A stretch of DNA of 64,000 nt from an uncultured Caulobacterales bacterium (GTDB taxonomy: Bacteria; Pseudomonadota; Alphaproteobacteria; Caulobacterales; Maricaulaceae): positions 682,001 to 746,000 of the forward strand of contig CANNER010000001.1 of assembly GCA_947503715.1 (NCBI GenBank). The letters are read 5' to 3'. A program made the position numbers and the translations under genes. Under the pieces are notes generated by a model. That model was not told the origin of the DNA. It searched no databases and saw nothing but the letters and a program-made list of their open reading frames with translations. Shown here one piece after another: positions 44,428 to 62,361 of the stretch (the stretch's first letter is position 1; the number at the start of each line of letters is the position of its first letter).

Positions 44428-44429
44428 CC

Positions 44430-45955: not shown

Positions 45956-47731
45956 ATGAGTATGACTGAAGCCGAAACCATCCAGGTTCTGCCGACTGAA
46001 CGGGGTGTCCCCATTCGACATGGTGATTTTGAAACCCTGTGTGATGCACTCGACTATGCCGCAACAGCAAAGACGGGACTGTCATATTTCGATGGTAAAG
46101 CACGTCCAAAGGCGGCGCTTTCTTATGCTGATCTTCATAGCCAAGCTATTGAGATGGCAAAGCGCCTTGTTCCATTCGCCAAGAAAAATTCACGTATTGG
46201 AATTGCGGCCGTTTCGACTCCCGAATTCGCGGTTATGTTTTTCGCCTGCCAATATGCAGGTCTTGTCGCTGCCCCTGTACCGCTGCCTGTTACGCTGGGC
46301 GGGCGGAGTTCGTATGAACGGCAATTGCAACGGTTGGCTGATACGGGTGATTTTCACGCACTTTTATGCCCGGAATCAATGGACGGCATTATGCGTTCGG
46401 CCTTAAATGATCAGGCGATTCCAGTGATGACATTTGAGGCTGTTGGGAATTTGCCAGAGGGAGATGTTTTGCGACCATTTGGTAAGGATGATCTCTGTTA
46501 TATTCAATATTCTTCTGGTTCCTCTTCTTCGCCAAAGGGTATTATTGGAACGCAGAAATCCGTCTGTGCCAATTGCTTGGCGATTACGAAACACGGTATG
46601 AAAATGACCGAGACAGACCGGGGGACCTCTTGGCTCCCGCTCTATCATGATATGGGTTTGATCGGGTTTTTGATCGCGCCGATGACGGCACAAATGTCCG
46701 TTGATTACATTGATCCACAGGACTTTACGCGCCGGCCTATTACATGGCTGCAATTGATCTCTGATCATAAGGGCACGCTCTCTTACTCACCCACATTTGG
46801 CTACGAACTCTGCGTGCGGCGTTGGCGTGAAGATCGTGAGCTTGATTTGTCGAGTTGGCGTGTGGCCGGGATTGGCGGTGATATGGTGCGTCCTGAACCT
46901 CTGACAGATTTTCAAAACCTATTCGCAGATATGGGTTTTGGGCAGGGCGTTTTTACACCGTCATACGGTTTGGCAGAAACAACATTGGCCGCAACTTTTG
47001 CGCCATTGGGGCAGGGGCTAAAGACACACACAATCGATATGGAGCGCTACGCGCGTACGTCTGAGGCTGTTGAAGCGTCTGAGGTCACGCGCGAGGAAAG
47101 CCGAAGGTCTTTTGTGGCTTGCGGACATGTCCTACCGGATCATGAAATCGAAATTCGTGATTTTGACGATAACGTTTTGTCTGAAAAGCAAGTTGGCCGT
47201 GTTTGTCTCCGTGGACCGTCCGTGTCTCCCGGCTATTTCCGAAATACGCAGGCGACGGAAGCTTCTTTCTCAAAAGACGGGTGGTTGGACACAGGCGATG
47301 CCGGATATTGGCATGAAGGCCAATTGGTTGTCACAGGACGTTTTAAGGACCTGATTCTCTGGCATGGCCGGAATATTTGGCCACAGGATATTGAATGGGC
47401 CGCACAAGCTGCCGCGCCACATCGGTGTGGTCGGGCCTGTGCGTTTGCCATTGGGGGTGCGGGTGATGAAAAAGACATTATGCTATTGCTTGAATGTCGA
47501 ACGCGTAACCCGAAGCTATTGGAAGAAATTTATACGGCTGTCACGGCGGCGATTCGCCTGGAGGTTGGTGTGCCCGTCCGCCTGATGTTGGTGCCAAAAT
47601 CAACGATGATTATCACCAGCTCCGGCAAGCTTTCCCGTGCCCGTGTGAAGGCAAAGTTCCTCGAAGGCGCGATCATCGACTTGCAATCGGATGAAACTTT
47701 AAGAGTTGTTGCAGATAGCGCGTCAAAATAG
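45956..47731 (+). CDS. Fatty acyl-AMP ligase / acyl-ACP synthetase
   Basis: A 591-residue adenylate-forming enzyme of the FAAL type. The AMP-binding motif is YIQYSSGSSSSPKGI; WLPLYHDMGLIGFLI is highly typical of FAALs; then TPSYGLAETTLA and GWLDTGDAGYWHEGQLVVTG with GRFKDLILWHGRNIWPQDIE at the hinge. FAALs load fatty acyl-AMP onto a carrier protein rather than CoA. An acyl carrier protein and serine palmitoyltransferase follow, as in the Caulobacter sphingolipid cluster, so it probably supplies the acyl chain. The ATG at 45956 has GAGCGAGA before it; a GTG at 45941 is also possible. Confidence 0.9.
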   Translation: MSMTEAETIQVLPTERGVPIRHGDFETLCDALDYAATAKTGLSYFDGKARPKAALSYADLHSQAIEMAKRLVPFAKKNSRIGIAAVSTPEFAVMFFACQYAGLVAAPVPLPVTLGGRSSYERQLQRLADTGDFHALLCPESMDGIMRSALNDQAIPVMTFEAVGNLPEGDVLRPFGKDDLCYIQYSSGSSSSPKGIIGTQKSVCANCLAITKHGMKMTETDRGTSWLPLYHDMGLIGFLIAPMTAQMSVDYIDPQDFTRRPITWLQLISDHKGTLSYSPTFGYELCVRRWREDRELDLSSWRVAGIGGDMVRPEPLTDFQNLFADMGFGQGVFTPSYGLAETTLAATFAPLGQGLKTHTIDMERYARTSEAVEASEVTREESRRSFVACGHVLPDHEIEIRDFDDNVLSEKQVGRVCLRGPSVSPGYFRNTQATEASFSKDGWLDTGDAGYWHEGQLVVTGRFKDLILWHGRNIWPQDIEWAAQAAAPHRCGRACAFAIGGAGDEKDIMLLLECRTRNPKLLEEIYTAVTAAIRLEVGVPVRLMLVPKSTMIITSSGKLSRARVKAKFLEGAIIDLQSDETLRVVADSASK

Positions 47732-47739
47732 GTCTGAGG

Positions 47740-47758
47740 GCACGGCTTTACGCCGTGC
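47740..47758 (+). promoter_or_regulatory. Hairpin between ligase and carrier-protein genes
   Basis: GCACGGC-TTTAC-GCCGTGC is a perfect seven-base stem with a five-base loop and no T-run. It may protect or set the level of the carrier-protein message relative to the ligase. Confidence 0.5.
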
Positions 47759-47802
47759 GCTGTCTTTGATAGCGACGAGCACGTTTGAAATGAAAGACTG
47801 CC

Positions 47803-48051
47803 ATGACCGCCCCCACTGAGTCAGAGATTTACGATAAGATTTGTGAGCTTTTGAAGCCGTATAATCCCAAGGGCCTGCCGATTGAGCGGTCTTCTGGCAT
47901 TATGTCGGATCTGGAGGTCGATTCGGTGGCCGTTTTCGATTTTATTATGGAGTTGGAAGATCATTACGATATCTCAATTCCGATGGAGATGGTGTCCGAC
48001 ATTAAAACCGTTGGCGAACTTTCACTGGCCGCAAAAGGATTGATGTCCTGA
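47803..48051 (+). CDS. Acyl carrier protein of the sphingolipid operon
   Basis: An 82-residue carrier with the phosphopantetheine serine at position 41 in DLEVDSVAVFDF; the usual DSL is DSV here. Acidic helix 2 (DFIMELEDHYDISIPMEMV) fits an ACP. Its ATG-to-stop end overlaps the spt start by one base, so carrier and enzyme are translationally coupled. It is a specialised ACP, not the housekeeping AcpP. It most likely receives acyl groups from the FAAL and gives them to Spt or the N-acyltransferase. Confidence 0.92.
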   Translation: MTAPTESEIYDKICELLKPYNPKGLPIERSSGIMSDLEVDSVAVFDFIMELEDHYDISIPMEMVSDIKTVGELSLAAKGLMS

Positions 48052-49283
48052 TGACGGCTTTGTTTGACAAATACGCACCGCTTCAAACGCGCGTTGATAT
48101 GATGATGAAGATCGGCGCCGATGCGCTGGGCGTGAAATTCGATGATATTTTGTCCGCGACCCGCGGGCGTATCGGTAACCGCGAAATTCTTCTGGCTGGT
48201 ACGAATAACTATCTCGGCCTGACATTCGATGAGGATTGTCGCGCCGCCGCGAAAACTGCTGTTGATGATCACGGTACGGGTACGACGGGATCCCGCGTTG
48301 CAAACGGAACATATGCAGAACACACAGATTTGGAACAGGCCTTGGCAGAACATTTCGGAATGCCGTCCTGTATCGTGTTTACGACGGGCTATCAGACGAA
48401 CCTTGCCGCGATTTCGGGGCTGGCCGGTGATAAAGATGTCATCTTTATGGATGCAGATGCGCATGCCTGTATCATTGATGGATCGCGCCTGACCAATGCG
48501 TCGACCATTCGTTTCCGCCATAATAACCCGGAAGATCTGGATAAACGTCTCCGCCGACAAGGTGAGATTGAGGGCGGCAATGCCCTTGTTGTGATTGAAG
48601 GTATGTATTCCATGTTCGGTGATATTGCGCCCGTGGATGAATTTCTCGATGTGACGCACCGTCATGGCGGCTATCTCTTTATCGATGAAGCGCATTCCTA
48701 CGGTGTGTTCGGCCCCACTGGCTGCGGCATTGCGGAAGAGCAGGGCGTTTTGGATCAGGTTGACTTTATATCGGGCACATTCTCAAAATCCCTTGCTTCT
48801 GTCGGTGGATTTTGTGCGTCCAAACATCCTCAATTTGAAATTACACGCAAAGTTATGCGCCCCTATATGTTTACGGCGTCTGCCACGCCCGCCAATATTT
48901 GCGCGGCGCGTGTCGCCGTTGAGAAGGTCAAGACTGGTGGGTACTTGCGCGAGAATTTGAAAGCGCGGGCGCAACAGCTTCATGCCGGGTTGAAGGCTTT
49001 GGATTTCGACCTCTGCGCTGACCCGAGTCCCGTCATCGCTGTGCGTCGTCCTAATGAAGGCATTGCAGCGATGGAATGGAATTGGCTGATGGAAAACGGC
49101 GTTTACGTGAACCTCGCTGTTCCACCCGGAACACCGCAGAGCTCGTCTTTGCTCCGCATCTCACTCTCTGCGGCGCATACGGAAAGCGATGTGAATATTA
49201 TCATTGATGCATTTGGGCGAATGAAGGCCAGTCAGGCCGAAATTATGTCCGGTATGATGATCCGGATGCAGGCCGCGGAATAG
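48051..49283 (+). CDS. spt: Serine palmitoyltransferase
   Basis: A 410-residue PLP enzyme of the alpha-oxoamine synthase family, condensing serine with an acyl thioester to 3-ketosphinganine. Seen: LLAGTNNYLGL, GTGTTGSRVANGTYAEHTDL, MDADAHACIIDG with the PLP-stacking His region, FIDEAHSYGVFG and the Schiff-base lysine K246 in SGTFSKSLASVGG. The soluble homodimeric type resembles Sphingomonas and Caulobacter Spt. Other family members (KBL, BioF, HemA) are less likely because of the ACP and FAAL partners. Confidence 0.93.
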   Translation: MTALFDKYAPLQTRVDMMMKIGADALGVKFDDILSATRGRIGNREILLAGTNNYLGLTFDEDCRAAAKTAVDDHGTGTTGSRVANGTYAEHTDLEQALAEHFGMPSCIVFTTGYQTNLAAISGLAGDKDVIFMDADAHACIIDGSRLTNASTIRFRHNNPEDLDKRLRRQGEIEGGNALVVIEGMYSMFGDIAPVDEFLDVTHRHGGYLFIDEAHSYGVFGPTGCGIAEEQGVLDQVDFISGTFSKSLASVGGFCASKHPQFEITRKVMRPYMFTASATPANICAARVAVEKVKTGGYLRENLKARAQQLHAGLKALDFDLCADPSPVIAVRRPNEGIAAMEWNWLMENGVYVNLAVPPGTPQSSSLLRISLSAAHTESDVNIIIDAFGRMKASQAEIMSGMMIRMQAAE

Positions 49284-49284
49284 G

Positions 49285-49488
49285 TTAGCCCTCTTCTTCT
49301 TCTGCGCGGGTTTGCAGATAAAGCGCTGCTAATGCGCAAGGGATTAATAACATAAATGTTGCAATGAGGATTGTGTCGGTATCTCCACCAGCACGAGATG
49401 TTTGCCCAGCTATCCATGACCCGATTAATAGGACTGAAATCAACACCGTTAAGGTGATATGATTGGCGTAACTGGTAAAGTCTCTCAT
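49285..49488 (-). CDS. Small membrane protein
   Basis: A 67-residue protein with two hydrophobic helices (TLTVLISVLLIGSWIAG and ILIATFMLLIPCALAALYL) and an acidic tail RAEEEEG. It faces spt with a one-base gap. Not recognised; it may belong with the sphingolipid locus only by position. Confidence 0.5.
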   Translation of the reverse strand: MRDFTSYANHITLTVLISVLLIGSWIAGQTSRAGGDTDTILIATFMLLIPCALAALYLQTRAEEEEG

Positions 49489-49580
49489 CGGCGTCTCCAG
49501 GGCGCCCCGGATATGTCAAGGCTAGGCATATGAAAATGAAGTTTCAATAAAGACGCGCCTCAATATTGTCACATTTTCGC

Positions 49581-50501
49581 CTAATTTGCCCGAAAAGCGC
49601 CTTTTCGCCATAGTTTCCAGAACAAAAACGGTGAATGTAGCACCGGATGACGACGTTGCGCAGGTGTGGGGTCCAATTTGACTCCGGAGTGATTCTCTAC
49701 CTTTCGGGCGACATAATCAATCCCACCATCAAATGTCGCTGCTCCGAGCAGCACGCGGATCGCGGCGGCAGGCTTGCCTAAGAGACGTCGCAAGAACCAT
49801 CTGCGCTTGGCTTTTCCGATAGGTTTCTGCGGAATTTCATAATTACCGTTTTCATCCGGTGCGCCGTAAAGAGCTGTCGTGATCGCTTCATAGCGTTCCG
49901 CAAATCGGGCGACGATTTCCTCTGCGCGTCCGGTAGAGCTTTCGGGGCGAAGCTCAGTTTGGTAGCTCTCGTAAAATCCGCGCCCCCAAAATACTGCGGC
50001 AGTTGCGCGTCCTTTGAGAAGTGGCGCTGTTTCCGCTGCCATCGTTTCAACAGCTTTAACGCGTCCCGCCCAGACACGATCCAAGACGGTCTCTTCCTTA
50101 GACCAGAGGACTGCGCAGGGTTGCGAAAAGCGTCCCCATACCTGTGAGAGGAAGGCCTTGGAACTACAGCGCCTTTCAAATTCCGACAGGCTTAAAATTG
50201 AATATTTGCATGTGCTTAGCGTGCCGTCCTCATTCTCTCTTTCGAGGTAATAAACGGCGGGAGGTATGAGGCGATTTATGAGGGCGCGTGGTCCGGTACC
50301 ATGGGTTTTACGGTAGCTATCTACTAGCACATAGAAATCGAGCATTTTTTCCGAGTTATCCAGCTCTCGTAATGAGCTGCCATAATACACCATGGCCTGA
50401 ACACGATCGGTGTGACGGGCGCGAATCGCGTCCATAACAGCAGTGACGCGCGCCGGCGGGTCGAGTGTTTCACCCTTTATGATATCCAGAACCGTGCTCA
50501 T
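49581..50501 (-). CDS. TAM41-like nucleotidyltransferase in the sphingolipid locus
   Basis: A 306-residue protein that resembles the TAM41/Mmp37 CDP-diacylglycerol synthase family: MVYYGSSLRE (like the YGSG loop), KMLDFYVLVDSYR (the metal-binding D-F-x-x-x-V-D), then PPAVYYLERENEDGTLSTCK and KYSILSLSEFERR. It starts right after the lipid kinase stop, in the order kinase then nucleotidyltransferase. TAM41 couples CTP to phosphatidic acid; here the logical substrate is a ceramide phosphate or related phosphate. It may correspond to one of the Caulobacter Cpg proteins needed for ceramide phosphoglycerate. The family call is from pattern, not an alignment. Confidence 0.75.
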   Translation of the reverse strand: MSTVLDIIKGETLDPPARVTAVMDAIRARHTDRVQAMVYYGSSLRELDNSEKMLDFYVLVDSYRKTHGTGPRALINRLIPPAVYYLERENEDGTLSTCKYSILSLSEFERRCSSKAFLSQVWGRFSQPCAVLWSKEETVLDRVWAGRVKAVETMAAETAPLLKGRATAAVFWGRGFYESYQTELRPESSTGRAEEIVARFAERYEAITTALYGAPDENGNYEIPQKPIGKAKRRWFLRRLLGKPAAAIRVLLGAATFDGGIDYVARKVENHSGVKLDPTPAQRRHPVLHSPFLFWKLWRKGAFRAN

Positions 50502-51401
50502 CTATCGTAGGAATGTCACAGGACGGCTGGCGCGGACAGTAAATTTGCCTGACGGGAATGAAAGAAATTCGCCGTCCAACACGACGGGGCCGGAATAGCT
50601 GTAATTAATTTCGTTACGACAGACTGAGAAGATGCCGTCTTTGCGGCGATCAACTGATTTGCGACCCAGCCATAAGCCAAGAATATTGCGGCCCAGTTTT
50701 TTATAACCTGACGTCACCCAAGTCAGGCGAAGCGGAGCCTCTTCTTCTCCCCAAAACGGGTCGAGACCCAAGATGAGACCGGGAAGGGTCGTGATAACTG
50801 TGCCCAGATGTTCACCTTCATAGAGATCATCAAGATGAACAGACGTCAGTTGCATCAGCGTCGCGTCGTCGCCACGAATACCTTTGAGAATACCGCCAAA
50901 CACGGCCAATGATCCGCCAATCCCTTTGCGGTGCAATTGGCCGGTCGTATAGCGTGTGATCTGCGGAATCGCGCCAGTCGAGAAGAGAAAACCGGAATAA
51001 TCAGGGCCGTCCAGTTCAGACGCGATGAGAAGTGGGTTGTTAGTTGGTGAGAGTTCTGACGCGAGTTTTGTTTTAACTCTATGTGGGCTCGCCGACGCAA
51101 AACCTATATTCTTGGCAACCTGGTTTGTCATGCCACCCGGGATGATGGAGAATTTTGGAAAATTTGCGAACCTGTCTTCTTGTCGGAGAAATTCGGATAT
51201 GACGCCCTGAACAGTCCCGTCTCCGCCTTCAATGATGACATGTTCGACCTTGTCTATCGCTGCTCTCTCAACAGTGGATGGGAGGTAGTCGAAAGGATCC
51301 AGATAAAAAATATCGTCTGTATCGCCGTAGAGTTCATGCAGAACGGAGCCCTTACGTGCGACGCGCTCTGACAAAGAATTGACTATGAAGAGCCGTCTCA
51401 T
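50502..51401 (-). CDS. cpgB: DAGK-fold lipid kinase, probable ceramide kinase (CpgB-like)
   Basis: A 299-residue kinase of the diacylglycerol/sphingosine kinase fold. The nucleotide loop is EHVIIEGGDGTVQG (GGDGT at residues 59-63), and the later IPGGMTNQVAKNIGF is the family G-G-T-x-N element in variant form. In Caulobacter a protein of this type, CpgB, phosphorylates bacterial ceramide. Context here agrees: spt, ceramide synthase-like and LptFG-like genes surround it. It starts eight bases after the LptG-like gene and abuts the TAM41-like gene, forming one operon. Diacylglycerol kinase activity is the alternative. Confidence 0.82.
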   Translation of the reverse strand: MRRLFIVNSLSERVARKGSVLHELYGDTDDIFYLDPFDYLPSTVERAAIDKVEHVIIEGGDGTVQGVISEFLRQEDRFANFPKFSIIPGGMTNQVAKNIGFASASPHRVKTKLASELSPTNNPLLIASELDGPDYSGFLFSTGAIPQITRYTTGQLHRKGIGGSLAVFGGILKGIRGDDATLMQLTSVHLDDLYEGEHLGTVITTLPGLILGLDPFWGEEEAPLRLTWVTSGYKKLGRNILGLWLGRKSVDRRKDGIFSVCRNEINYSYSGPVVLDGEFLSFPSGKFTVRASRPVTFLR

Positions 51402-51409
51402 AGCGAAGT

Positions 51410-52489
51410 TTACAGACTTTCTGTTTTCAACAGAAGATATGCGCCCGTAACTCCAAAGAGAAGCAGTGGTATCGCAATCGCGGGTAGGACACCCATCCCG
51501 CCCGACGCCGCAAAGGTCGCCATCGCGCCGTCAATGATGAGGAATACAAAACCCATCGTAATGCCGATGATGAGTGTCTTGTCGCCCGTATCTTCACGGC
51601 CTGTCCGCTGCATGAGAGCAGCACAGGCAATGAGCAATATGAAAGCGGCGAGGGGACGTGTGAGACGGTGTGCGTGCCAGAATTTATAAGCAAAGCTTGG
51701 TTTTGACCCGCTATTGCCGCGTTTGGAGAAATTCCGCATTTCGGACAATGAGAGGTCCCGCGGCTCTGCGGCGAGGCGGGCGATTGATGTGGGTGTTTGT
51801 CGCGTTTCCCAAACCCGCGTTCCTGCGACGGGTCGAAGCTCTCGCGACTCCCCGTCCGCGTCTTTGACATCCAGTTGCTCGACATTAGTCAACAGCCAGT
51901 TGGGGTCTTGATAATCCGCCTTTTCGGCATGCCAAATGCGTTCGACTTCTCCGGTTTCGCTTCGGAAGAAGAACTTGAGATTACCAAGACTATTATAACC
52001 AAGGCGGTCTGTGGCCCGCACGATACGACCACGATCTTCCAGCCAGAGCGGGTTTTCCGCCGTTATATTTTTCACCTTATATTCGCCAATCCCCCAAGCT
52101 TGTAATGAACGAACGGCGGGGGCCATGGCGAGGTCGATAAAGATGACCGACATTATAGCCGCACCGACAACGGCGGGCGTCATCAGCCAGACTTGCTTTG
52201 TGGCGGATATGCCAAAGCCAAGCAGGGCGACCAACTCATGTTGCCGGATGAGTTTAACGAAGGTCAATAGGATTGCGACGACGAGGGTGAAGACAAAGAT
52301 ACGGTCAAAAATCACAGGGGCGCGCAGAAACATATATTTGAACGTTCCTGCAAAACCACTGCCATCGGCGACAATATCTCCGCCATTCGCGAGACTGTCG
52401 AGCAGGCCGATCAATGTTAGAAACCCAAAGACGACGGTCAGCCATGTGAAGAGAAAAGTCTTCGATATGTAGAGGCCAAACCTATACAT
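51410..52489 (-). CDS. lptG: LptG-family permease subunit
   Basis: A 359-residue YjgP/YjgQ permease with three N-terminal helices, a periplasmic beta-jellyroll (ENPLWLEDRGRIVRATDRLG, FFFRSETGEVERIWHAEKAD) and three C-terminal helices, the architecture of LptG. With LptF and the LptB ATPase it lifts lipopolysaccharide from the inner membrane. Here it lies next to sphingolipid kinase genes rather than lptD/surA, so it may serve a sphingolipid or be the only LptG and do both. Overlaps the lptF-like gene by eight bases. Confidence 0.88.
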   Translation of the reverse strand: MYRFGLYISKTFLFTWLTVVFGFLTLIGLLDSLANGGDIVADGSGFAGTFKYMFLRAPVIFDRIFVFTLVVAILLTFVKLIRQHELVALLGFGISATKQVWLMTPAVVGAAIMSVIFIDLAMAPAVRSLQAWGIGEYKVKNITAENPLWLEDRGRIVRATDRLGYNSLGNLKFFFRSETGEVERIWHAEKADYQDPNWLLTNVEQLDVKDADGESRELRPVAGTRVWETRQTPTSIARLAAEPRDLSLSEMRNFSKRGNSGSKPSFAYKFWHAHRLTRPLAAFILLIACAALMQRTGREDTGDKTLIIGITMGFVFLIIDGAMATFAASGGMGVLPAIAIPLLLFGVTGAYLLLKTESL

Positions 52490-53708
52490 CCTGTGGGATC
52501 CTTCGGTCGCGTGTCAGTTTCTTAAGCGCACCAAGCAGCTCGCCTTTGATGTGTCCCACCCAATGCGAGAATGAGGTGAGCGGTGGCTGTCCCATTTTAT
52601 AAGCGCTTTTCCAAAACAGAACGAAGGCGAAGACCGCGACTACACCAATAATCCCCCAAATGCCGAGCCAAGGCGGGACTTTTCCAGCCGCCCCCAATGA
52701 CTGTCCAAATTCCAGTGCTTTTTGAAGTGAGACTAGAAAGACCACGCCAACAAAAATTCCGGCAGAGGAGGGGTTTCGGCCGTAGTTCAGGCCGAAGGGC
52801 ACGGCGATGAAGGGAAGGAGCAAAATCAACGCAGCTTTGGAGAGACGCAAATGTAGAGCTGCATTATTTGTATTCTTGTCAATCTTAGTTGTATCTGTGC
52901 CTTTGCGATTTGCAAAAAGCTCAAGAGATGTCATTTCACGCTCATCATCACCACGCGCACGGTATTCCGTTTGACTGGTCGGCGCAGATATAATTGTTTT
53001 TTCCACGCTTAACTGCCCGGAAAGTGTGCCGTTCAAAACGTTGAAGTTGATGCCTTCTGCTAGATTTAGTACGGGCGCGCCAGTTTGGGCATTATCCCTG
53101 ATCGTGATCTCGCCCTTATTTGCGCTGGTGAATCGGTACCCTTTGACGGGCTCACCCTTACCATTCACATCTTCAATGATTTCGTAAATGAAGATCGGGC
53201 CAATCGAACCGTCTGGCGAGTCCGTTCCAGCGAAAAATGTGCGATCTCCCACCTCCGTAAATGTGCCCTCACGCAACGCAGCCGTAAAACTCTGTTGTTT
53301 GACGACATGGAGGACCTGACGATAATTATACCGTCCAACAGGCTGCATATAGCCTTCGATAAACATGGTCAGGCCTGCAAGGAAAATTGCGAGCCATAAG
53401 AACGGCTTTGTCATATGGAAAAGAGATACGCCTGCACCAAGAGCCGCGGTCAATTCAGACGACTTTGACAAGCGGTCCACCGTGATGATTGTGCCAAGTA
53501 GCAACGCCATCGGAACCGCCATGCCGAGATAATAGGGCAGGAGGTTCACGATCATATTTGTCGCGTCAGAAGCAGGATTTGTCGAATTTGTAACAATTTC
53601 GAAAATACGTAACAGGCGTTCCATTAGCAGAACGCAACAGGCGAAAACGACCAGCCCACCGACACTTGTCGAGGCTTTTTTCAGGATATATCGGTTCAAT
53701 CGGCCCAT
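52482..53708 (-). CDS. lptF: LptF-family permease subunit
   Basis: A 408-residue YjgP/YjgQ permease opening with MGRLNRYILKKASTSVGGLV. Three helices, a periplasmic jellyroll (GTFTEVGDRTFFAGTDSPDG, REGTF element) and three more helices with NYGRNPSSAGIFVGVVFLV match LptF. First gene of the leftward operon lptF-lptG-kinase-nucleotidyltransferase. No LptB or LptC gene is visible in the window. Diverges from the DUF2141 gene with a 100-base shared promoter region. Confidence 0.88.
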   Translation of the reverse strand: MGRLNRYILKKASTSVGGLVVFACCVLLMERLLRIFEIVTNSTNPASDATNMIVNLLPYYLGMAVPMALLLGTIITVDRLSKSSELTAALGAGVSLFHMTKPFLWLAIFLAGLTMFIEGYMQPVGRYNYRQVLHVVKQQSFTAALREGTFTEVGDRTFFAGTDSPDGSIGPIFIYEIIEDVNGKGEPVKGYRFTSANKGEITIRDNAQTGAPVLNLAEGINFNVLNGTLSGQLSVEKTIISAPTSQTEYRARGDDEREMTSLELFANRKGTDTTKIDKNTNNAALHLRLSKAALILLLPFIAVPFGLNYGRNPSSAGIFVGVVFLVSLQKALEFGQSLGAAGKVPPWLGIWGIIGVVAVFAFVLFWKSAYKMGQPPLTSFSHWVGHIKGELLGALKKLTRDRRIPQDV

Positions 53709-53808
53709 ATGACAGGTCTGTGATTACGCCTTTACGACAGAGGAATCGTTTCCCATATGGCTGTTAAGGACCTTTTTTGGGTTCAGTGAGGCTTAAGGAA
53801 ACACCGTC

Positions 53809-54422: not shown

Positions 54423-55577
54423 TTGCCGACCAATGCCGACATCAAAATCGTCTCCGTTCAAACGAAGGCGCAGGTCCAGCAATTCCTAGACTTGCCCTAT
54501 GATCTTTATCGGGGGGATCCGAGTTGGGCGCCGCCATTAAGGTTGGAGCGCAAAGAGCAGCTAGACCCTGTAAAGAATCCAGCTGCGAAAGACTTGGACC
54601 GCTCGTTATTTCTAGCGGTTAGAGGGGACGCGATTATTGGCCGGATTGCGGTTTTTACAAATCCCGCCCATGATCGACAGCACGATGTTGAAACAGCCTT
54701 TTTTGGCTATTTTGATTGCGAAAATGATCCGGAACTCGGCAAAATGCTCCTCAATAGGGCCGATGAATGGGCCAAAGACAAAGGCCGAAAGCGATTGGTC
54801 GGCCCTGCGCAATGGGGCGTGAATGAGGAGGTCGGCCTCCTTGTTGAAGGGTTTGATAGTCCCAATGTCGTCCTGATGTCGTATGGCAAACCCTATTATC
54901 AAGACATGGTCGAGACGGCTGGTTATGCCAAAGCGATTGATATGTACGCCTTTCAAGCGGATTTACACGCCGGATATCCGCGCCCGAAAATGACACGCAT
55001 GATGGTTGATTATGCGACCAAGTCCAAAGCCGTAAGCTGGCGGAAACTTGATCCAAAGAATTTCACGCGCGATATCGAATTGGCCATGAGCATCTTCAAC
55101 GATGCGTGGGGCAATAATTGGGGATTCCTAGAATTCCCGGATGACGCTATCCAGCACCTCGCCAAAGAGATGAAACCGCTCATTGCTTCGGATTGTTTTT
55201 ATATAGGCGAGATTGACGGGGAGCCCGCCGCTTTTATCTGCCTGATTCCGGACTTGAACGAATTGGCAAAGGGCTTTGATGGGAAGCTCCTGCCGTTCAA
55301 TTGGGCCAAGCTAATTTACCGTCTAAAGTCTGGGAAGGCGAAACAGGCGCGGGTGCCGTTGATGGGGCTCCGTACAAAACATCACGGCACGCGCAAGGGG
55401 CTCGGACTTGTTGCAGCTCTGTGCGAAACTGTGTTCGAAGCCGCGCGCCAAAAGGGCTATACCTATTGCGAGCTGTCTTGGATTCTCGAGGATAATGACG
55501 GCATGATTTCAATTTGTGAGCAAGCCAGCGCCGTGCCTTATAAAACTTACCGCATGTATGAAAAACGGATCGGCTGA
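54423..55577 (+). CDS. bcerS: GNAT-fold N-acyltransferase resembling bacterial ceramide synthase (bCerS)
   Basis: A 384-residue protein with a GNAT fold over about residues 50-380: LDLPYDLYRGDPSWAPPLRL, LFLAVRGDAIIGRIAVFTNP, FFGYFDCENDPELGKMLLNR and, in the second half, HHGTRKGLGLVAALCETVFE near the acyl-thioester pyrophosphate loop. It begins at a TTG with GGGG before it, as no in-frame ATG is near. Caulobacter bCerS is a GNAT-type enzyme encoded in its sphingolipid locus and differs wholly from eukaryotic ceramide synthases. Size, fold and context fit. Direct identity needs an alignment. Confidence 0.8.
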   Translation: MPTNADIKIVSVQTKAQVQQFLDLPYDLYRGDPSWAPPLRLERKEQLDPVKNPAAKDLDRSLFLAVRGDAIIGRIAVFTNPAHDRQHDVETAFFGYFDCENDPELGKMLLNRADEWAKDKGRKRLVGPAQWGVNEEVGLLVEGFDSPNVVLMSYGKPYYQDMVETAGYAKAIDMYAFQADLHAGYPRPKMTRMMVDYATKSKAVSWRKLDPKNFTRDIELAMSIFNDAWGNNWGFLEFPDDAIQHLAKEMKPLIASDCFYIGEIDGEPAAFICLIPDLNELAKGFDGKLLPFNWAKLIYRLKSGKAKQARVPLMGLRTKHHGTRKGLGLVAALCETVFEAARQKGYTYCELSWILEDNDGMISICEQASAVPYKTYRMYEKRIG

Positions 55578-55578
55578 C

Positions 55579-56316
55579 ATGGTCGCAAGCGTTCTCATTT
55601 TGGCAGGGCAGCGTGCAGGCTTGGTAGATCCGCTTTGTGAGGCGACGGGCGTATCGCACAAGGCGGAAATTTCTGTGGCGGGCATTTCTATGTTGGACCG
55701 TGTTCGTACGGCGCTGTCCGACGCAAATATGCCGACACCTCATATCTCCGGCTATTCGGGCAGTGACTTGACAGAAGTGCCCAGCGGCGAGGGACCTGCC
55801 GATAGTGTCCTTTTGGGGTTAGAAGACATTGATACCTATCCCTGCCTTGTGACGACTTGTGATCATGCGCTTCTGGCACCCGAAATGGTTGAAGCGTTTG
55901 TTTCCGGAGCCGTGGCCGAAGGGACAGATATTTGTGTTGGTCTCGCGACAGAAGAGGTTATTCAAGCTGAATATCCAACGACGAAACGGACCTATCTCCG
56001 CTTTTCTGACTACGCCGTATCGGGGTGCAACCTCTTTTATATTGCGAATGAGGACGGCCTAAAAGCCATCGCATTCTGGCAGTCGGTTCAGCATTTGCGC
56101 AAAAACCCGCTCAAACTGGCCAAAAAAGTCGGGGTCGGTATCGGGATCAAATTCGCGGCGGGGCGGTTGTCTTTGGGCGGCGCCTTTGAATATGCCGCAG
56201 GCCGCATCGGCATTACGGCGGCCCCAGTTCTGATCCCATTTGCCGAAGCTGCGATTGACGTTGATAAACCGTCCGACCTCGAACTGGTTGAGCAGATTTT
56301 GGCAGACCGTCAGTGA
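55579..56316 (+). CDS. MobA-like NTP transferase
   Basis: A 245-residue nucleotidyltransferase with the N-terminal VASVLILAGQRAGLVDPL loop, a variant G-x-G-x-R element, the nucleotide-metal site TTCDHALLAPEM and the late AIDVDKPSDLELVEQIL typical of the NTP_transf_3 group. It begins one base after the ceramide-synthase-like stop and its own stop overlaps the next start (TGATG). It may make a CDP- or GDP-linked headgroup donor. The glycine-rich loop is unusual (lacking the classic GGKSSRMG), so activity needs testing. Confidence 0.72.
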   Translation: MVASVLILAGQRAGLVDPLCEATGVSHKAEISVAGISMLDRVRTALSDANMPTPHISGYSGSDLTEVPSGEGPADSVLLGLEDIDTYPCLVTTCDHALLAPEMVEAFVSGAVAEGTDICVGLATEEVIQAEYPTTKRTYLRFSDYAVSGCNLFYIANEDGLKAIAFWQSVQHLRKNPLKLAKKVGVGIGIKFAAGRLSLGGAFEYAAGRIGITAAPVLIPFAEAAIDVDKPSDLELVEQILADRQ

Positions 56317-58820
56317 TGACATCGCCTAATCTGACCGTTGCTTCAACTGACTCCGTTGGCAAGCGTATCGCCGCCAATACGGGGCTGATGGTCGGTTCAA
56401 AAGTGCTGTCAGTCTTATTGGGTCTTGGCAGTCTTTTGATTGCGGCAAAATCCCTCAGTGTGGCGGCCTTGGGTGTTATCCTTTTTATTCACGCCTATCA
56501 CCTTTTCTTCGCACAACTCGCGACGTTTCAGGCATGGCAAACGATCATTCGGTTTGGCATGGATGATGTCAAAAATGATGATGCGACGGGCCTCGCGCGG
56601 CTTCTGCAATTTGGTTATAAGCTTGATATATTGTCGGCGATCGTTGCCTTTATCGGGGCTGTCGGCTGTTTCTGGCTTGTTGTTTTCATCGCGGAAAGTT
56701 TCCCCGCTCTGTTCCAGCGTGACGGGCAGTCCGTTGATATTCGCACATTGCAGACACTTGTTATTTTCTACTCCTTACTGCTACTCCTGCGCCATCGCGG
56801 CACATCGATAGGTGTCTTCCGTCTTTTTGACCGTTTTGACGTTCTGGCATGGCACGGCGTTATTATGCCGGCGGTTCGCTTTGTCGGCGTCGTTATTGCT
56901 GCGCAATTAGGCGCGGGCCTGGAAGGTTTCTTACTTGCTTGGTTCATCGGCTCACTGGCAGATTATCTGACGATGCCGCTTCTCGCCGCGATTGAGCTGC
57001 GGAAACGGCGATTGTTGAAACCTGTTCTAAGGGCGAAATCGAATATTCTGAATCCGCGCAAGGGCGTTTGGCCCTTCGTGATTAAGGCAAATATCGACTC
57101 GACACTCGCCGCTTCAAATGTTCACCTTCCAGTGCTGCTTGTTATGGCAGTGTTCGGGGCGGGTTGGGTTTCGATTTACCGCATTGCAGAAGAGATTGCG
57201 AAGCTTCTTTCCGAAGGGTTTAAGCTCCTCGATCAAGTTATTTATCCGGAATTGGCGAAAATGGTCACGATGGGAGAGGCGGCCAAGATTTGGCGGCTGG
57301 TCATTAAAACAGCCGTTATATTACTGGTTTTCGGCCTCACAGTTTCCCTGTTCATATGGCTCTTCTTGGGTGGTTTATTGGGGTCTTTCCTACCACAGGA
57401 TTATATCGAGTCTGCGCCGCTTGCGAGTTTACTGGTTCCTGCGGCAGCTCTCTTAGGTATGGCGGCGCCTCTCTATCCGGTCCTTTATGCAACGGATCAT
57501 CCCGAACGCGCGATTTACGCGCGCGGGGCAGGGGTTTTCGTTTATATTGTTTCGTTTTTCATCCTGAGTTTTACAATCGGTCATATGGCACCGGGATGGG
57601 CGGCGATTGCCGGAAATCTTGTGGCGGTCGGGCTTCTGCTCTTCCTTGCCAAACAAGCTTTAGATAAAGTCGTAGCCCGAACACATGGAGCGGAAACAGC
57701 AATGGAAAATACAGCGCCGGGATTCGGCCTGATCGGTGAAACCGATGCCAAGATTTGGGGGTTGCCCCTGAAGGAATGGCAGGTCAGGGCGTTCAAGAAA
57801 GCGGGTGCGGATGTCACGCTTCCACTTGAGGTGAATGATCAAGGCATTTGGCACCATGTCGACTGGATTATGTCCGCAGAACTGTCCAAGTCTTTTGCGA
57901 AGACGGAACGAACGGCCCTCGTAGAGAACGGTGTGATCGTCAGTCTCTCTACAGCTACGCAGGCAGAGGCAGAGCGCTTCATCGGCAATACGGTTGACGC
58001 ACTTGCAGGGGAAGACTTCGTTGTCGCGGCCCCCTCCGACGTGAATGACGGTTATATCAAATCCCTGCGCAAGCAGGAGGCGCCCTATGTGTTGGATACG
58101 AACGAGACGCCTATCCTCGATATTATGCGGCGTCAGTTTAAGTCCTCTTACAAAGGCATTACCGATTTCGTGACGAAGTGGTTTTGGCCGGTTCCGGCTT
58201 TTTATGTCACGCGGTTCTGCGCTTGGCTGCGCCTTTCTCCCAATCAGGTGACGACTGTTGGTTTCTTCCTGATGCTGGCGGCGACATGGTTCTTCTGGAA
58301 TGAATTCTGGGCGCTGGGTTTCCTGTGTGGCTGGACGATGACCTTCTTGGACACGGTTGATGGGAAGCTGGCGCGGACGACCATGACCTATTCCTATTGG
58401 GGCAATATTTATGACCACGGGATTGATCTCGTCCATCCACCCTTCTGGTACTGGGCGTGGATGATCGGTTTGGGCGGAACGTATCAAATGTCCGACCCGC
58501 TCTTTATCGCGCTGCTTGCGATTTGGGTGGGCTATGTCGTGGACCGCGTGATTGAAGGTATCTTTATGCGCCAGCACGGATTTCATATTCACGTCTGGAC
58601 GCGTTTTAATTCCGGTCTTCGGTTCTTCATCGCACGAAGAAACCCGAATACGTTCATTATGATGATCGGGATAATGCTTACAGTGGTCTTTGCGGGTGCA
58701 GGTTATTGGGCGTTCCTCCTGATTGCGGCGTGGACTTGGATCTGTATTTTCGCCAATTTCTGTACATTGATCGCGGGCCTTCTCGCCAAACGCCCCCTCG
58801 CGAGCTGGATGGACGCGTAG
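56316..58820 (+). CDS. Fusion of a Wzx/MATE-like flippase with a CDP-alcohol phosphotransferase
   Basis: An 835-residue membrane protein in three parts. Residues 1 to about 450 are twelve or more helices of a polysaccharide-flippase type. About 460-610 is a soluble linker (IGETDAKIWGLPLKEWQVRA; VLDTNETPILDIMRRQFKSS) like the domain before di-myo-inositol phosphate synthases. About 620-835 is a CDP-alcohol phosphotransferase with the complete motif D679xxDG-xx-AR-x8-G-x3-D700-x3-D704. It could transfer a phosphoalcohol from a CDP donor and flip the product. It is coupled to the genes on each side. This fusion is the most unusual protein here. Confidence 0.88.
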   Translation: MTSPNLTVASTDSVGKRIAANTGLMVGSKVLSVLLGLGSLLIAAKSLSVAALGVILFIHAYHLFFAQLATFQAWQTIIRFGMDDVKNDDATGLARLLQFGYKLDILSAIVAFIGAVGCFWLVVFIAESFPALFQRDGQSVDIRTLQTLVIFYSLLLLLRHRGTSIGVFRLFDRFDVLAWHGVIMPAVRFVGVVIAAQLGAGLEGFLLAWFIGSLADYLTMPLLAAIELRKRRLLKPVLRAKSNILNPRKGVWPFVIKANIDSTLAASNVHLPVLLVMAVFGAGWVSIYRIAEEIAKLLSEGFKLLDQVIYPELAKMVTMGEAAKIWRLVIKTAVILLVFGLTVSLFIWLFLGGLLGSFLPQDYIESAPLASLLVPAAALLGMAAPLYPVLYATDHPERAIYARGAGVFVYIVSFFILSFTIGHMAPGWAAIAGNLVAVGLLLFLAKQALDKVVARTHGAETAMENTAPGFGLIGETDAKIWGLPLKEWQVRAFKKAGADVTLPLEVNDQGIWHHVDWIMSAELSKSFAKTERTALVENGVIVSLSTATQAEAERFIGNTVDALAGEDFVVAAPSDVNDGYIKSLRKQEAPYVLDTNETPILDIMRRQFKSSYKGITDFVTKWFWPVPAFYVTRFCAWLRLSPNQVTTVGFFLMLAATWFFWNEFWALGFLCGWTMTFLDTVDGKLARTTMTYSYWGNIYDHGIDLVHPPFWYWAWMIGLGGTYQMSDPLFIALLAIWVGYVVDRVIEGIFMRQHGFHIHVWTRFNSGLRFFIARRNPNTFIMMIGIMLTVVFAGAGYWAFLLIAAWTWICIFANFCTLIAGLLAKRPLASWMDA

Positions 58821-59492
58821 GTGAAGTGTTACGCGATTTTTGATCTGGATGAGACGATCACGACCCGTGGGACGTGGGGGCGGTATGTCTCGCTTTCTGT
58901 CAAAGGAAAGCCTTGGAAACTAGTTGGATTATGGGCGCGAGCCGGATTTGGACAGTTGATTTACAAGGTCTGTTCAACGGAGCGCATTTCCGTCAAACGG
59001 GGTATGTTACGGTGGAGTCTGTCTGGGCAAAGCCGTGACGCTTTGGAGGCTTTAGCCGACAAGTTTGCAGATAATGAAATTGCAAATGGCCTCCGCCCCG
59101 GGGCTGTCCGACAGCTTGATATTCATCGTGCAGCCGGGGATAAAATTATCATAGCTTCCGCCGGAGCCGATATTGTTGTTGAAGCCATCGCCAAACGCTT
59201 GGGCATTGACGAGGTGATCTGTACAAAACTCGCGTGGAAAGACGGGAAATGCGCCCGTTATTTTGGCTCCGAGAATTGCTATGGCCCCGGAAAATTGGAC
59301 ATGCTGGCGAAACGTTTGGAAACATTTGATGATTTCCAACGTGAGGCAGCGCATATCACTATGTACTCAGACAGTTATTCCGACTTGCCCGTTTTAAAAT
59401 TTGCGGACAAAGGCGTGGCCGTTAATGCTGATGCGAAACTCACTCGCGAGGCGGCCATTCATGGTTTTGAAACCGTTGATTGGTCTAAGTAG
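58821..59492 (+). CDS. HAD-IB family phosphatase
   Basis: A 223-residue HAD hydrolase beginning with GTG directly after the previous stop. Motif I is FDLDETIT, motif II lies in IIIASAGADI, the lysine is near GPGKLDML and motif IV is YSDSYSDLPVL. It resembles SerB-type HAD-IB phosphatases. In this operon it could dephosphorylate a headgroup phosphate made by the CDP-alcohol phosphotransferase, as in the phosphatidylinositol-phosphate route, or regenerate a phosphoalcohol. Confidence 0.88.
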   Translation: MKCYAIFDLDETITTRGTWGRYVSLSVKGKPWKLVGLWARAGFGQLIYKVCSTERISVKRGMLRWSLSGQSRDALEALADKFADNEIANGLRPGAVRQLDIHRAAGDKIIIASAGADIVVEAIAKRLGIDEVICTKLAWKDGKCARYFGSENCYGPGKLDMLAKRLETFDDFQREAAHITMYSDSYSDLPVLKFADKGVAVNADAKLTREAAIHGFETVDWSK

Positions 59493-59521
59493 AAAAGACA
59501 AAGATACAGGCTGGATTTTCA

Positions 59522-60277
59522 ATGCACGCTATTATTCTCGCCGCAGGCCGCGGATCACGCCTCCTGCCGCTGACAACAAATTTGCCGAAATGTCTTCTCC
59601 CCATCGGGAATACGACCGTTTTGGGTATGCAATTGGACACACTTTTCGCACATGGGGTCAAAACAGCGACCGTCATTACGGGCTTTAATAGCCACATGGT
59701 CAAAGCCGAAATTGATGCGCGTGAATCCGGGCCGAAGGTCAAAACGCTTTATAACCCTTTCTTCCAAGTTGCAGATAATCTGGCCTCTTGCTGGATGGCA
59801 CGAAAGTCGATGAAGAAAGATTTCCTTCTCATTAACGGCGATACGCTGTTCTCACCGGAATTGCTCCAAACGATTCTTGCGGCACCGAAAACACATATTG
59901 CCGTCACGATTGACCAGAAGGGTTATTATGACGGCGACGACATGAAGGTCACGCTCGATGGGCCGCGTCTGACGGCGATTGGTAAGACGTTACCATTGAC
60001 TGAAACTGACGGCGAATCCATCGGCATGCTTCGCTTTATGAGTGAGGGTACCAAGACATTCCGCAATGAGCTCAAACGCCTGATGAAGACACGTGACGGC
60101 ACGAAAAGCTGGTTCTTGTCTGCGATCCACGGACTGGCACAGGCCGGACAACGTATCGATACAATCAACATTAAAGGTGCCGATTGGTCCGAATTGGATA
60201 CGCCGGAAGATTACGAAATCTGCCGTTCGCTGTTTGGAAATTCCGAAATGGCGCGTCAACGCTTCGCTGTTATCTAA
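59522..60277 (+). CDS. Sugar/alcohol-phosphate nucleotidylyltransferase (IPCT/LicC-like)
   Basis: A 251-residue nucleotidyltransferase. N-terminal loop is HAIILAAGRGSRLLPLTTNL with LPKCLLPIGN; metal site FLLINGDTLFSP; and YNPFFQVADNLASCWMARKS is the Y-N-P-x-x-x-x-x-N motif seen in inositol-1-phosphate cytidylyltransferases and choline-phosphate cytidylyltransferase LicC. It could make CDP-inositol, CDP-glycerol or a similar donor for the fusion protein upstream. Substrate not resolvable from sequence. Confidence 0.85.
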   Translation: MHAIILAAGRGSRLLPLTTNLPKCLLPIGNTTVLGMQLDTLFAHGVKTATVITGFNSHMVKAEIDARESGPKVKTLYNPFFQVADNLASCWMARKSMKKDFLLINGDTLFSPELLQTILAAPKTHIAVTIDQKGYYDGDDMKVTLDGPRLTAIGKTLPLTETDGESIGMLRFMSEGTKTFRNELKRLMKTRDGTKSWFLSAIHGLAQAGQRIDTINIKGADWSELDTPEDYEICRSLFGNSEMARQRFAVI

Positions 60278-60319
60278 AACGTGATTGGAGTCAGCTCTAG
60301 ACTCGGCTAAAGCGTTCAG

Positions 60320-61540
60320 ATGGGACTCGGTACTACTCTATTAGATAAAGTCATGCAGCGCTTCGTATCGAAGGGTGCATTGACCGTTATATTGCCTGAC
60401 GGCACGTCCACCACCTATGGGTCAGGCGGAGAGCCATCGGCCACAATCAAAATCAATGATACTGCGCTTCCAATGGCGTTAGTGAAGAACCCAGAACTTG
60501 TGGCGGGCGAAGCCTATATGGATGGCCGTTTGGAAATGGTCGACTGTACGATCCATGATTTCCTGACTGTCTTCGCAAATAATCGTGACGGCCTCCGCAA
60601 AGGGCCTATTCGGTCGAAAGTCAAAGCGTGGAATAAGAAAATCAAACGCTGGCATCAACGCAATCCGCGCGCGGCCAGCTCGGCCAATGTCAAGGCGCAT
60701 TACGATATTTCGAACGAGCTGTATAAAATGTTCCTCGACGAGGACATGCAATATAGCTGCGCCTATTTCTCTGACCCAGACATGACACTGGAAGAGGCGC
60801 AACTCGCCAAGAAGCGCCATATCGCGGCGAAATTGGACCTGAAAGCCGGGCAGCGCGTATTGGATATCGGGTGTGGCTGGGGCGGCATGGCAATGCATCT
60901 TGCGAAAGAACACGGCGTCAAAGTCGTGGGCGTTACACTGTCGACTCAACAGCACAGCCTCGCAATAGAGCGGGTGAAAGACGCTGGCCTCGAAGATCTC
61001 GTCGATATCCGATTGCAGGATTACCGCGATGTTGAAGGCCCTTTTGACCGCATCGTGTCTGTCGGAATGTTCGAACATGTTGGGATCGGGCATTTTGCCG
61101 AATATTTTGAGACGATACGTGAATTGCTAACGGATGAGGGCGTCGCTCTTGTGCATTCGATTGGCCGGAAGGGTGGTCCCGGCACGACCGGTGCGTGGAT
61201 CCGAAAATATATTTTCCCGGGTGGATATTCTCCTGCCTTATCCGAAACATTTGCTGAAATTGAGAAGGCGGGACTCTGGGTCTCGGATTGTGAAATCCTG
61301 CGCCTTCATTACGCCTACACGCTGGCTGAGTGGAATAAGCGCTGTCAGGCGCAAAAGGCCGAAATCGTTGAGATGATGGGGGAAGAATTCTTCCGCATGT
61401 GGGAATTTTACCTCTCCATCTCGGAGCTCTCATTCCAACTCGGCAAACATATGAATTTCCAAATCCAGCTGACAAAGGATGTGCATGCGCTGCCCGTCAC
61501 GCGGGATTACATGGTGGACGAAGAACGCGCGCAGGGGTAA
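60320..61540 (+). CDS. cfa: Cyclopropane-fatty-acyl-phospholipid synthase
   Basis: A 406-residue SAM-dependent enzyme. An N-terminal lipid-binding region precedes the methyltransferase domain: NVKAHYDISNELYKMFLDED, motif I VLDIGCGWGGMAMHL, VVGVTLSTQQ, and SVGMFEHVG with the bicarbonate/active-site region; the tail holds EFYLSISELSFQ. Adds a methylene to unsaturated acyl chains. Position suggests it may act on sphingolipid acyl chains rather than general phospholipids. Preceded by 42 bases with no signal seen. Confidence 0.95.
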   Translation: MGLGTTLLDKVMQRFVSKGALTVILPDGTSTTYGSGGEPSATIKINDTALPMALVKNPELVAGEAYMDGRLEMVDCTIHDFLTVFANNRDGLRKGPIRSKVKAWNKKIKRWHQRNPRAASSANVKAHYDISNELYKMFLDEDMQYSCAYFSDPDMTLEEAQLAKKRHIAAKLDLKAGQRVLDIGCGWGGMAMHLAKEHGVKVVGVTLSTQQHSLAIERVKDAGLEDLVDIRLQDYRDVEGPFDRIVSVGMFEHVGIGHFAEYFETIRELLTDEGVALVHSIGRKGGPGTTGAWIRKYIFPGGYSPALSETFAEIEKAGLWVSDCEILRLHYAYTLAEWNKRCQAQKAEIVEMMGEEFFRMWEFYLSISELSFQLGKHMNFQIQLTKDVHALPVTRDYMVDEERAQG

Positions 61541-61551
61541 AGCGCCAAATT

Positions 61552-62361
61552 ATGGCTACACCTGTTGAGAAACCCAAACATCTGACCAACCCACGCCGGG
61601 CTTTCGTCAAACGGAATGGCAAGAAACTCGTGCGCAAAATTGCGAAGTTTCAAAGTGGACAATCTAAAGTGCCCGACACGCCCAAGATCGCGAATGATCA
61701 CTTCCCATTCCTGAAGGATTTCACTGAGAATTGGGAAACCATTCAGGCGGAAGCGCGTGAGGTCCTGAAATTCCGCGATGCCATTCCGACATTTCACGAA
61801 GTCTCGCCGGACCAGTACCGTCTCTCAACAGAGAATAACTGGAAAACATTCGTGCTGTTCGGATTTGGTCAACGGTTGGAGAAAAATGCGGCACTAGCGC
61901 CGAAAACCTCTGATATTCTCGAAAAAGTGCCGAATCTTCAGACGGCCATGTTCTCTATCCTCGCGCCCGGATATCATATTCCCGCCCATAAAGGTGTGAC
62001 CAAGGGTATTCTGCGCTCCCATCTCGGGCTCATCATCCCAAAGGATCGTGAGCAGTGTCGCATTCGCGTCGATGATACGATCACGCCGTGGAAAGAGGGG
62101 GAGATTTTTGTGTTTGACGACACCTATGAGCACGAGGTCTGGAACGACACCGACGAAGAGCGCGTCATTCTCTTATTCGATTTCGACCGTCCAATGAAGC
62201 TAGGCGGTCGCGTACTGAACAAGACGTTTCTCAACATTATGAAGCTCACGGCCTTTTATCAGGATCCGAAGAAGAACCTACAAACGGCTGAAGAACGCCT
62301 GGAAGCGGCAATCAAACAAGCCGATGCCAATATGGAAGCGATGAGCGACCCGGCGAGTTAA
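61552..62361 (+). CDS. LpxO-like aspartyl/asparaginyl beta-hydroxylase family protein
   Basis: A 269-residue iron/2-oxoglutarate dioxygenase. Iron ligands are likely the histidines in GILRSHLGLIIP and TYEHEVWND, with the 2-oxoglutarate arginine in ERVILLFDFDRP; EIFVFDD precedes. In LpxO the family hydroxylates a lipid A acyl chain. In this locus it may hydroxylate a ceramide acyl chain. The ATG at 61552 gives a normal start; a longer frame reads through cfa. Eleven bases from the cfa stop. Confidence 0.88.
   Translation: MATPVEKPKHLTNPRRAFVKRNGKKLVRKIAKFQSGQSKVPDTPKIANDHFPFLKDFTENWETIQAEAREVLKFRDAIPTFHEVSPDQYRLSTENNWKTFVLFGFGQRLEKNAALAPKTSDILEKVPNLQTAMFSILAPGYHIPAHKGVTKGILRSHLGLIIPKDREQCRIRVDDTITPWKEGEIFVFDDTYEHEVWNDTDEERVILLFDFDRPMKLGGRVLNKTFLNIMKLTAFYQDPKKNLQTAEERLEAAIKQADANMEAMSDPAS

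Follow-up and report, generated by a model that had tools for sequence, protein, structure and literature searches.

How does a bacterium complete its ceramide when it keeps the genes for building and decorating this lipid but has no orthologue of CerR, the ceramide reductase? This question is raised by a gene locus at positions 45956..62361 of the 64,000-nucleotide stretch of DNA analysed here (the window, G000:C1:682001-746000), which lies in the genome of an uncultured Caulobacterales bacterium (G000; 3.15 Mb, 9 contigs, 99.97% complete). Most probably, the locus produces a Caulobacter-type anionic ceramide phospholipid, ceramide phosphoglycerate (CPG) or its di-phosphoglycerate form (CPG2), which would reach the outer membrane by a route without a CerR orthologue. 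The relation to the Caulobacter CpgABC system, together with a second pair of Lpt permeases, had been proposed in an earlier, sequence-only reading of this DNA and has good support from sequence, synteny and fold. Domain models and synteny also agree with the gene content given in that reading. All fifteen genes of the locus are intact, the GC content is 51.4% (52.2% for the window), and the intergenic gaps range from -8 to 100 bp throughout, except for 297 bp between the convergent units. The features are as follows, with L080 denoting a Caulobacter-like locus used for comparison.

45956..47731, + strand: aasR, acyl-acyl carrier protein synthetase / fatty acyl-AMP ligase (PRK09192, 665 bits over the cut-off); heads the operon in relatives.
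47803..48051, + strand: acpR, dedicated acyl carrier protein (PF00550); starts 71 bp after aasR, at the cerR site of relatives.
48051..49283, + strand: spt, serine palmitoyltransferase (a member of equivalog model NF047599, with 544.4 bits against a cut-off of 500; nearest PDB relative 2x8u, a serine palmitoyltransferase, E 7e-106).
49581..50501, - strand: cpgC, Tam41-like cytidylyltransferase (Tam41 fold), proposed cytidine diphosphate (CDP)-ceramide synthase.
50502..51401, - strand: cpgB, ceramide kinase of the DAGK fold (PF00781); 28% tblastn identity to the L080 copy.
51410..52489, - strand: lptG2, second LptG-like permease (PF03739, LptG model best).
52482..53708, - strand: lptF2, second LptF-like permease (PF03739, LptF model best).
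53809..54375, + strand: DUF2141 protein (PF09912) with a signal-like N-terminus, proposed periplasmic partner.
54423..55577, + strand: cerS, GNAT-type bacterial ceramide synthase (PF00583); 37% identity to the L080 copy, which occupies the CC_1154 place.
55579..56316, + strand: CofC/MobA-like nucleotidyltransferase (PF12804), CC_1153 counterpart; 38% identity to the L080 copy; likely ATG at 55579 in a frame open from 55516, gap to the preceding gene +1.
56313..57677, + strand: flippase part (Wzx/MOP-like, CC_1166-like) of a fusion protein, residues 1-455 (PF01943 in 5 of 22 aligned proteins, the window copy not among them).
57708..58820, + strand: cpgA, CDP-alcohol phosphotransferase part of the fusion, residues 466-835 (PF01066 at 642-804); 37% identity to the L080 cpgA.
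58821..59492, + strand: HAD-IB phosphatase (TIGR01490, 112 bits over the cut-off).
59522..60277, + strand: cpgD, cytidine triphosphate (CTP):phosphoglycerate cytidylyltransferase; 117/246 aligned residues identical to the CpgD of genome G161.
60320..61540, + strand: cyclopropane fatty acid (CFA) synthase (PF02353; CPFASynBruc 542 bits, cut-off 600).
61552..62361, + strand: OlsC/LpxO-like lipid acyl 2-hydroxylase (PF05118; OlsC model 225 of 450 bits and LpxO model 134 of 500, both below the cut-off); likely ATG at 61552 in a frame open from 61399, gap to the preceding gene +11.

The comparison with the C. crescentus region, which the sequence-only reading had suggested, revealed twelve functions shared between the window and the locus of G161. 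Three of five published cpgD primers match G161 exactly, and the two flanking screening primers have 2 and 4 mismatches; G161 is therefore C. crescentus itself or closely related to it. The locus in this genome (L080, L081) contains cpgD, a CofC-like gene, cerS, lptG2, lptF2, genes for a HIT protein and a metallophosphoesterase, cpgA, cpgB, cpgC, spt, acpR, cerR, aasR, a flippase gene and an LptC gene. We equate these with 16 of the 17 genes published as CC_1168-CC_1152 (PMC11324152), with CC numbers given by position and CC_1167 left out. The published cluster and the window have aasR, acpR, spt, cerS, cpgC, cpgB, cpgA, cpgD, the CofC-like gene, the flippase, lptF2 and lptG2 in common. However, the C. 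crescentus cluster has cerR, of which neither the window locus nor its genome has an orthologue, and it has lptC2, HIT and metallophosphoesterase genes that are not in the window locus. The window locus, in contrast, has the flippase fused to cpgA and adds the HAD-IB phosphatase, the DUF2141 protein, the CFA synthase and the OlsC/LpxO-like hydroxylase. According to the available text of PMC11324152, the 17-gene phosphosphingolipid cluster is already listed for Hyphomonas neptunium, and LptC2/F2/G2 and the flippase are proposed for export. H. neptunium is reported there to lack CC_1158, like the window locus, while the remaining 16 genes are reported to have good orthologues in it; cerR, which the window lacks, would thus be among them. 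The novelty implied by the sequence-only reading was thus too high, as the locus is a version of this published cluster. The cluster itself is already known; the window version is rearranged and without CerR. The published genetics and biochemistry of the CPG/CPG2 pathway that we draw on are found in the available text of PMC11324152, PMC12275187, PMC13228409, PMC10331486 and PMC11087976.

In relatives, cerR sits between aasR and acpR, and its frame was read out in 11 loci. Across 55 stretches, the aasR-acpR gap falls into two classes with none intermediate, 39 of 918-1282 bp and 16 of 77-127 bp; in the window it is 71 bp. This count includes stretches of at least 12 kb with both flanking genes within 1.5 kb, leaving out shorter stretches and gaps above 1.5 kb; nine contigs occur twice, and 35 long-gap and 11 short-gap stretches are left without the repeats. 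A tblastn search of the window for cerR at E 1 came back empty. Using a profile built from nine CerR proteins, with rows from G113 and G202 among them, we detected CerR orthologues (E <1e-125) in four of the 18 genomes of the genus (G113, G202, G206 and G019). In the G000 genome, the profile search found no CerR orthologue, and the best match (E 1.2e-28) belongs to a separate clade of paralogues, which is present in 16 of the 18 genomes, including three of the four CerR-bearing ones, and is set apart from CerR with full support. A cerR orthologue elsewhere in the genome is therefore ruled out by the profile search, and the distant paralogue is ruled out as CerR by its separate clade. The short gap is not an assembly artefact either, given the contiguity of G000 and G103 (one contig) and the bimodal gap sizes. 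Spt and CerS were found in all 18 genomes of the genus, and CerR is missing in 8 of the 12 that are at least 90% complete. The absence of the ceramide reductase gene had been overlooked in the sequence-only reading. Since cerR is missing, the ceramide synthesis claimed there would need some other reductase to be complete.

In a marker tree without outgroup (FtsZ, LpxC and their neighbours), a single branch (94/97) separates the four CerR-bearing genomes from the rest, and with midpoint rooting the CerR-less genomes fall into two clades. A cluster-protein tree that includes an outgroup places G202, which bears CerR, as the sister group of the window clade (SH-aLRT 99). We note that only the shape of this tree is used; long branches meet in its outgroup, and its 'CerR-' label also covers G203, G238, G212 and G246, where the site was not reached, and G056 and G095, where cerR is under the threshold, and its counts of CerR changes are left unused. 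Based on the midpoint rooting and the position of G202, two losses of CerR, or a loss and a regain, are likely, and a single loss would also be possible. Previous reports describe CerR as periplasmic with an electron source that is not known, state that the core sphingolipid enzymes occur in all sphingolipid-making bacteria, and present the order of acylation and reduction in bacterial ceramide synthesis as disputed (PMC11087976, available text). In metagenome-assembled genomes from the Black Sea, many Spt-like genes have no CerR or bCerS nearby, and rearrangement or non-homologous replacement has been suggested (PMC11334938, available text). Following these remarks, the general idea of CerR replacement is not new; new here are a lineage whose headgroup locus is complete and a search for CerR across its whole genome.

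To find candidate reductases, short-chain dehydrogenases/reductases (SDRs) were compared between CerR-less G000 and G103 and CerR-bearing G113 and G019, which left three candidates. PF00106 (adh_short) was the sole query, with 22, 27, 32 and 23 matches in the four genomes, respectively. Passing these through a motif filter left 19, 22, 28 and 18 frames for the comparison, including a few that are neighbours of a match. In G000 the filter removed three matches (L204-L206), and it also removed some in the other genomes; the survey is not exhaustive. The candidates were chosen on 4 of the 18 genomes, and the other fourteen played no part in the choice.

One explanation, which we regard as possible but rather unlikely, is that an unlinked cytosolic SDR (G000:C4:148130-148867) replaces CerR, so that reduction takes place in the cytoplasm and possibly before N-acylation, as in eukaryotes. 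Homologues of this SDR at E 1e-30 are present in all 14 CerR-less genomes of the genus, including that of the window, and in none of the four CerR-bearing ones. It belongs to the adh_short family and, by eye, has no signal-like N-terminus. Its third-best NCBIfam model is mycolate reductase (110 bits of 380), which we take to be a beta-keto lipid reductase; however, all 25 listed NCBIfam models, FabG types included, are under their cut-offs. No lipid gene lies nearby in the stretches compared, and the homologues in the second CerR-less clade are 45-49% identical to that of the window genome. Moreover, the SDR was selected for its pattern in 4 of the same 18 genomes, and the pattern amounts to one independent contrast on the marker tree (sign test p = 1). 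Because of this single contrast, we consider the SDR a lead and not a result.

Similarly doubtful is the explanation that the work is done by another reductase: an SDR with a twin-arginine (Tat) signal (G000:C3:449520-450515, L260), a second SDR (G000:C4:80541-81371), the distant CerR paralogue (G000:C4:105795-106526) or a further one. Of the 14 CerR-less genomes, 9 have a near full-length copy of the Tat-signal SDR and two more have weaker partial matches, while the four CerR-bearing genomes have none; against the 3-ketodihydrosphingosine reductase model, this SDR scores 164 of 400 bits. It was not found at E 1e-30 in G024 (completeness 100), however, which rules it out as a general CerR substitute. 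The second SDR is present in 13 of the 14 CerR-less and two of the four CerR-bearing genomes. The CerR paralogue is presumably NDUFA9-like, in view of the reported kinship of CerR; its wide distribution in the genus favours it, but it also occurs in three of the four CerR-bearing genomes and forms a clade of its own, as described above. It is worth noting that the signal of the Tat-signal SDR is twin-arginine-like by eye, which would make it a possibly exported classical SDR.

A third explanation, that no reductase acts and the lineage exports 3-oxo-ceramide-based lipids, appears improbable. It would fit with the 14 of 18 genomes that keep Spt and CerS without a CerR orthologue, and Caulobacter cerR mutants are reported to build up oxidized ceramide (PMC11087976, available text). 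However, the downstream enzymes would need to accept 3-oxo-ceramide. We also know of no bacterium with a 3-oxo-ceramide-based end product, which counts against this explanation.

The steps of the ceramide phospholipid route that we favour are taken from homologues, except for the Tam41 fold of CpgC, which is shown here. AasR would charge AcpR with a fatty acid, Spt would join acyl-AcpR and serine into the 3-keto base, and CerS would attach the amide acyl chain. The 3-keto reduction would be carried out by an unlinked reductase in place of a CerR orthologue, or the keto group would stay. CpgB would then phosphorylate the lipid, and the Tam41-fold protein may use CTP to form CDP-ceramide. A glycerate unit would be added, with the HAD phosphatase removing any extra phosphate, and CpgD would make CDP-glycerate, from which CpgA would move phosphoglycerate and so complete the di-phosphoglycerate headgroup. 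Once finished, the lipid may be turned to the periplasmic face by the flippase that is fused to CpgA, and LptF2/LptG2, borrowing the LptB ATPase, would hand it on, with the DUF2141 protein as a possible periplasmic partner. The cyclopropane synthase and the OlsC/LpxO-like enzyme would modify the acyl chains. CpgC falls within the Tam41 fold at 14% identity to the Tam41 CDP-diacylglycerol synthase, and its substrate is presumed to be ceramide-1-phosphate instead. This fold gives the published 'unidentified mechanism' of CpgC a concrete chemistry, probably the formation of CDP-ceramide. The window CpgD keeps the catalytic residues and most CTP-contact residues (R16, K26, N90, D112 and W201), and has Ser in place of T93 and Ala in place of T88. 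In CpgD, T93 reads cytosine through its hydroxyl and T88 works via the backbone (PMC13228409, available text).

The flippase and CpgA form one open frame in 15 of the 23 distinct genomes or loci with both (window included), adjoining frames in six and distant frames in two; this count leaves out G109, G128, G134 and G089, where the two parts are separate matches or a stop lies inside. The fusion is a 'Rosetta-stone' hint that the flippase may carry the CpgA product. The available text of PMC11087976 states that no flippase has been assigned experimentally. The flippase also occurs in clusters without CpgA, which speaks against a strict tie between the two. The middle part of CpgA (residues 466-636) gave no sign of a decayed nucleotidyltransferase when compared by hhalign with the CpgD and CofC-like alignments (probabilities 0.2 and 0.1%).

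The slot between the flippase and the tail genes differs among relatives. It holds CpgA-HAD-CpgD in one type, HAD-TagF-like in a second (G113, G019, G163 and G203), HAD-ATP-grasp-nucleotidyltransferase in a third (G024 and G103) and HAD alone in a fourth (G073, G158, G198, G078, G253 and G223). The marker tree requires at least four cassette changes among the 15 genus genomes scored, and G198 has a second flippase-CpgA-CpgD set elsewhere in its genome. The TagF-like and ATP-grasp cassettes of close relatives, together with the HAD gene in the CC_1158 place of the window locus, would allow that the lipid has a headgroup other than that of CPG2. We think this unlikely, as CpgA and CpgD are both in the window locus and CpgD keeps the residues described above. 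As side observations, the TagF-like (Glyphos_transf) gene in the slot of L174, L175, L095 and L178 predicts ceramides with glycerophosphate-type headgroups. The ATP-grasp ligase of the third type comes with a second CofC-like nucleotidyltransferase (L088:1219-3032 and L089:17460-19348). In G238, G212 and G246 (L186, L187 and L193), ~0.9-1.7 kb between cpgD and CFA matches no query and may hold further cluster genes.

With regard to export, another LptF/LptG pair is located at G000:C1:369655-371861, and exactly four LptF/LptG matches (two pairs) are found in 15 of the 18 genus genomes; the exceptions are a split match in G205, a weak fifth match in G207 and two matches in the incomplete G208. 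LpxC is present in all 18 genomes, which suggests that lipid A is made in the genus and that the sphingolipid would complement rather than replace it. A cluster that replaces lipid A is ruled out by LpxC and the further LptFG pair. The DUF2141 gene lies immediately 5' of cerS in 50 of the 55 loci, a tally in which some contigs appear twice; it also occurs in Parvularculaceae records, and its product is a possible candidate for a periplasmic partner in sphingolipid transport. In the sphingolipid clusters of L033 and L190, tblastn finds no lptF2 or lptG2, and L033 has no flippase match either.

Several points weigh against the route proposed above. Several functions in the locus are assigned by family membership. 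The HAD and CofC-like genes are also retained where CpgA and CpgD are missing from the cluster, which makes the steps given to them here tentative. The Pfam Tam41 family matches none of the 18 aligned CpgC proteins at E 5. The metallophosphoesterase of L080, taken as CC_1158 by position, gave no hit when sought by tblastn in the window at E 1, where the HAD-IB gene is found instead, and the LptC of L081 has no match in the window at E 1, the genome not having been searched for it. The Caulobacter CofC-like mutant loses CPG2 but not CPG, and the CC_1158 phosphoesterase is not essential in Caulobacter (PMC11324152, available text). Finally, a search of the G000 genome for CFA synthases at E 1e-20 gave one match, that of the window, which may therefore serve ordinary phospholipids.

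This last point also favours the view that glycerophospholipids or lipid A are the substrates of the CFA synthase and the hydroxylase, the two genes being mere neighbours of the sphingolipid genes. The hydroxylase lies within the OlsC/LpxO superfamily, sharing the Asp_Arg_Hydrox family with both enzymes, and CFA is absent from G029, G103 and G019. However, unlike OlsC and LpxO, the window hydroxylase is linked to sphingolipid genes. Among 27 other family-f1 genomes fetched, 26 have the hydroxylase at the cluster end (not G193) and 23 a full-length CFA (none in G029, G103 and G019, and a 76-residue remnant in G209), whereas neither was found in the fetched stretches of five genomes outside f1 (G161, G185, G056, G095 and G114). 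In addition, G073, G158 and G113 have a further CFA elsewhere. We therefore regard the neighbour explanation as a serious alternative that is nonetheless somewhat improbable, and the travel of both genes with the cluster supports the earlier placement of the tailoring genes within the locus. In Caulobacter, the DesA-type enzyme CC_0202 is reported to hydroxylate the amide acyl chain (PMC11324152, available text), and the window hydroxylase may be its functional counterpart.

Upstream of aasR (42814-45470) are an aspartyl-protease-like gene, a CobT-like phosphoribosyltransferase gene and a Glu/Leu-type dehydrogenase gene, whose order is kept in many relatives and which have no evident tie to lipids. 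A tRNA-Val(cac) gene lies just 5' of the cluster (45530-45604), and other tRNA genes of the window are at 13908, 40234 and 40831.

We tentatively propose, while giving it somewhat less than even weight, that most of the genus (14 of 18 genomes) gave up CerR and finishes its outer-membrane sphingolipid either through a cytosolic SDR, with reduction before export in the eukaryote-like order disputed for Caulobacter, or without reduction, with 3-oxo-ceramide phospholipids in the outer membrane, and that the headgroup cassette is a swappable module. In the literature, searched without most subscription journals and supplementary tables, we found no report of a CerR-less CPG2 cluster, a flippase-CpgA fusion or a cassette exchange. 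The order of ceramide synthesis and the electron source for periplasmic CerR are open questions in the available text of PMC11087976, which this lineage could help settle. With Spt, CerS and the full CPG2 gene set but no CerR orthologue, it allows the question to be tested in a small number of genomes and supplies candidates for the reductase. Through its fusion with CpgA, a flippase that had no assignment is linked to one particular lipid, and new sphingolipid headgroups are predicted from the way close relatives exchange their headgroup cassettes.

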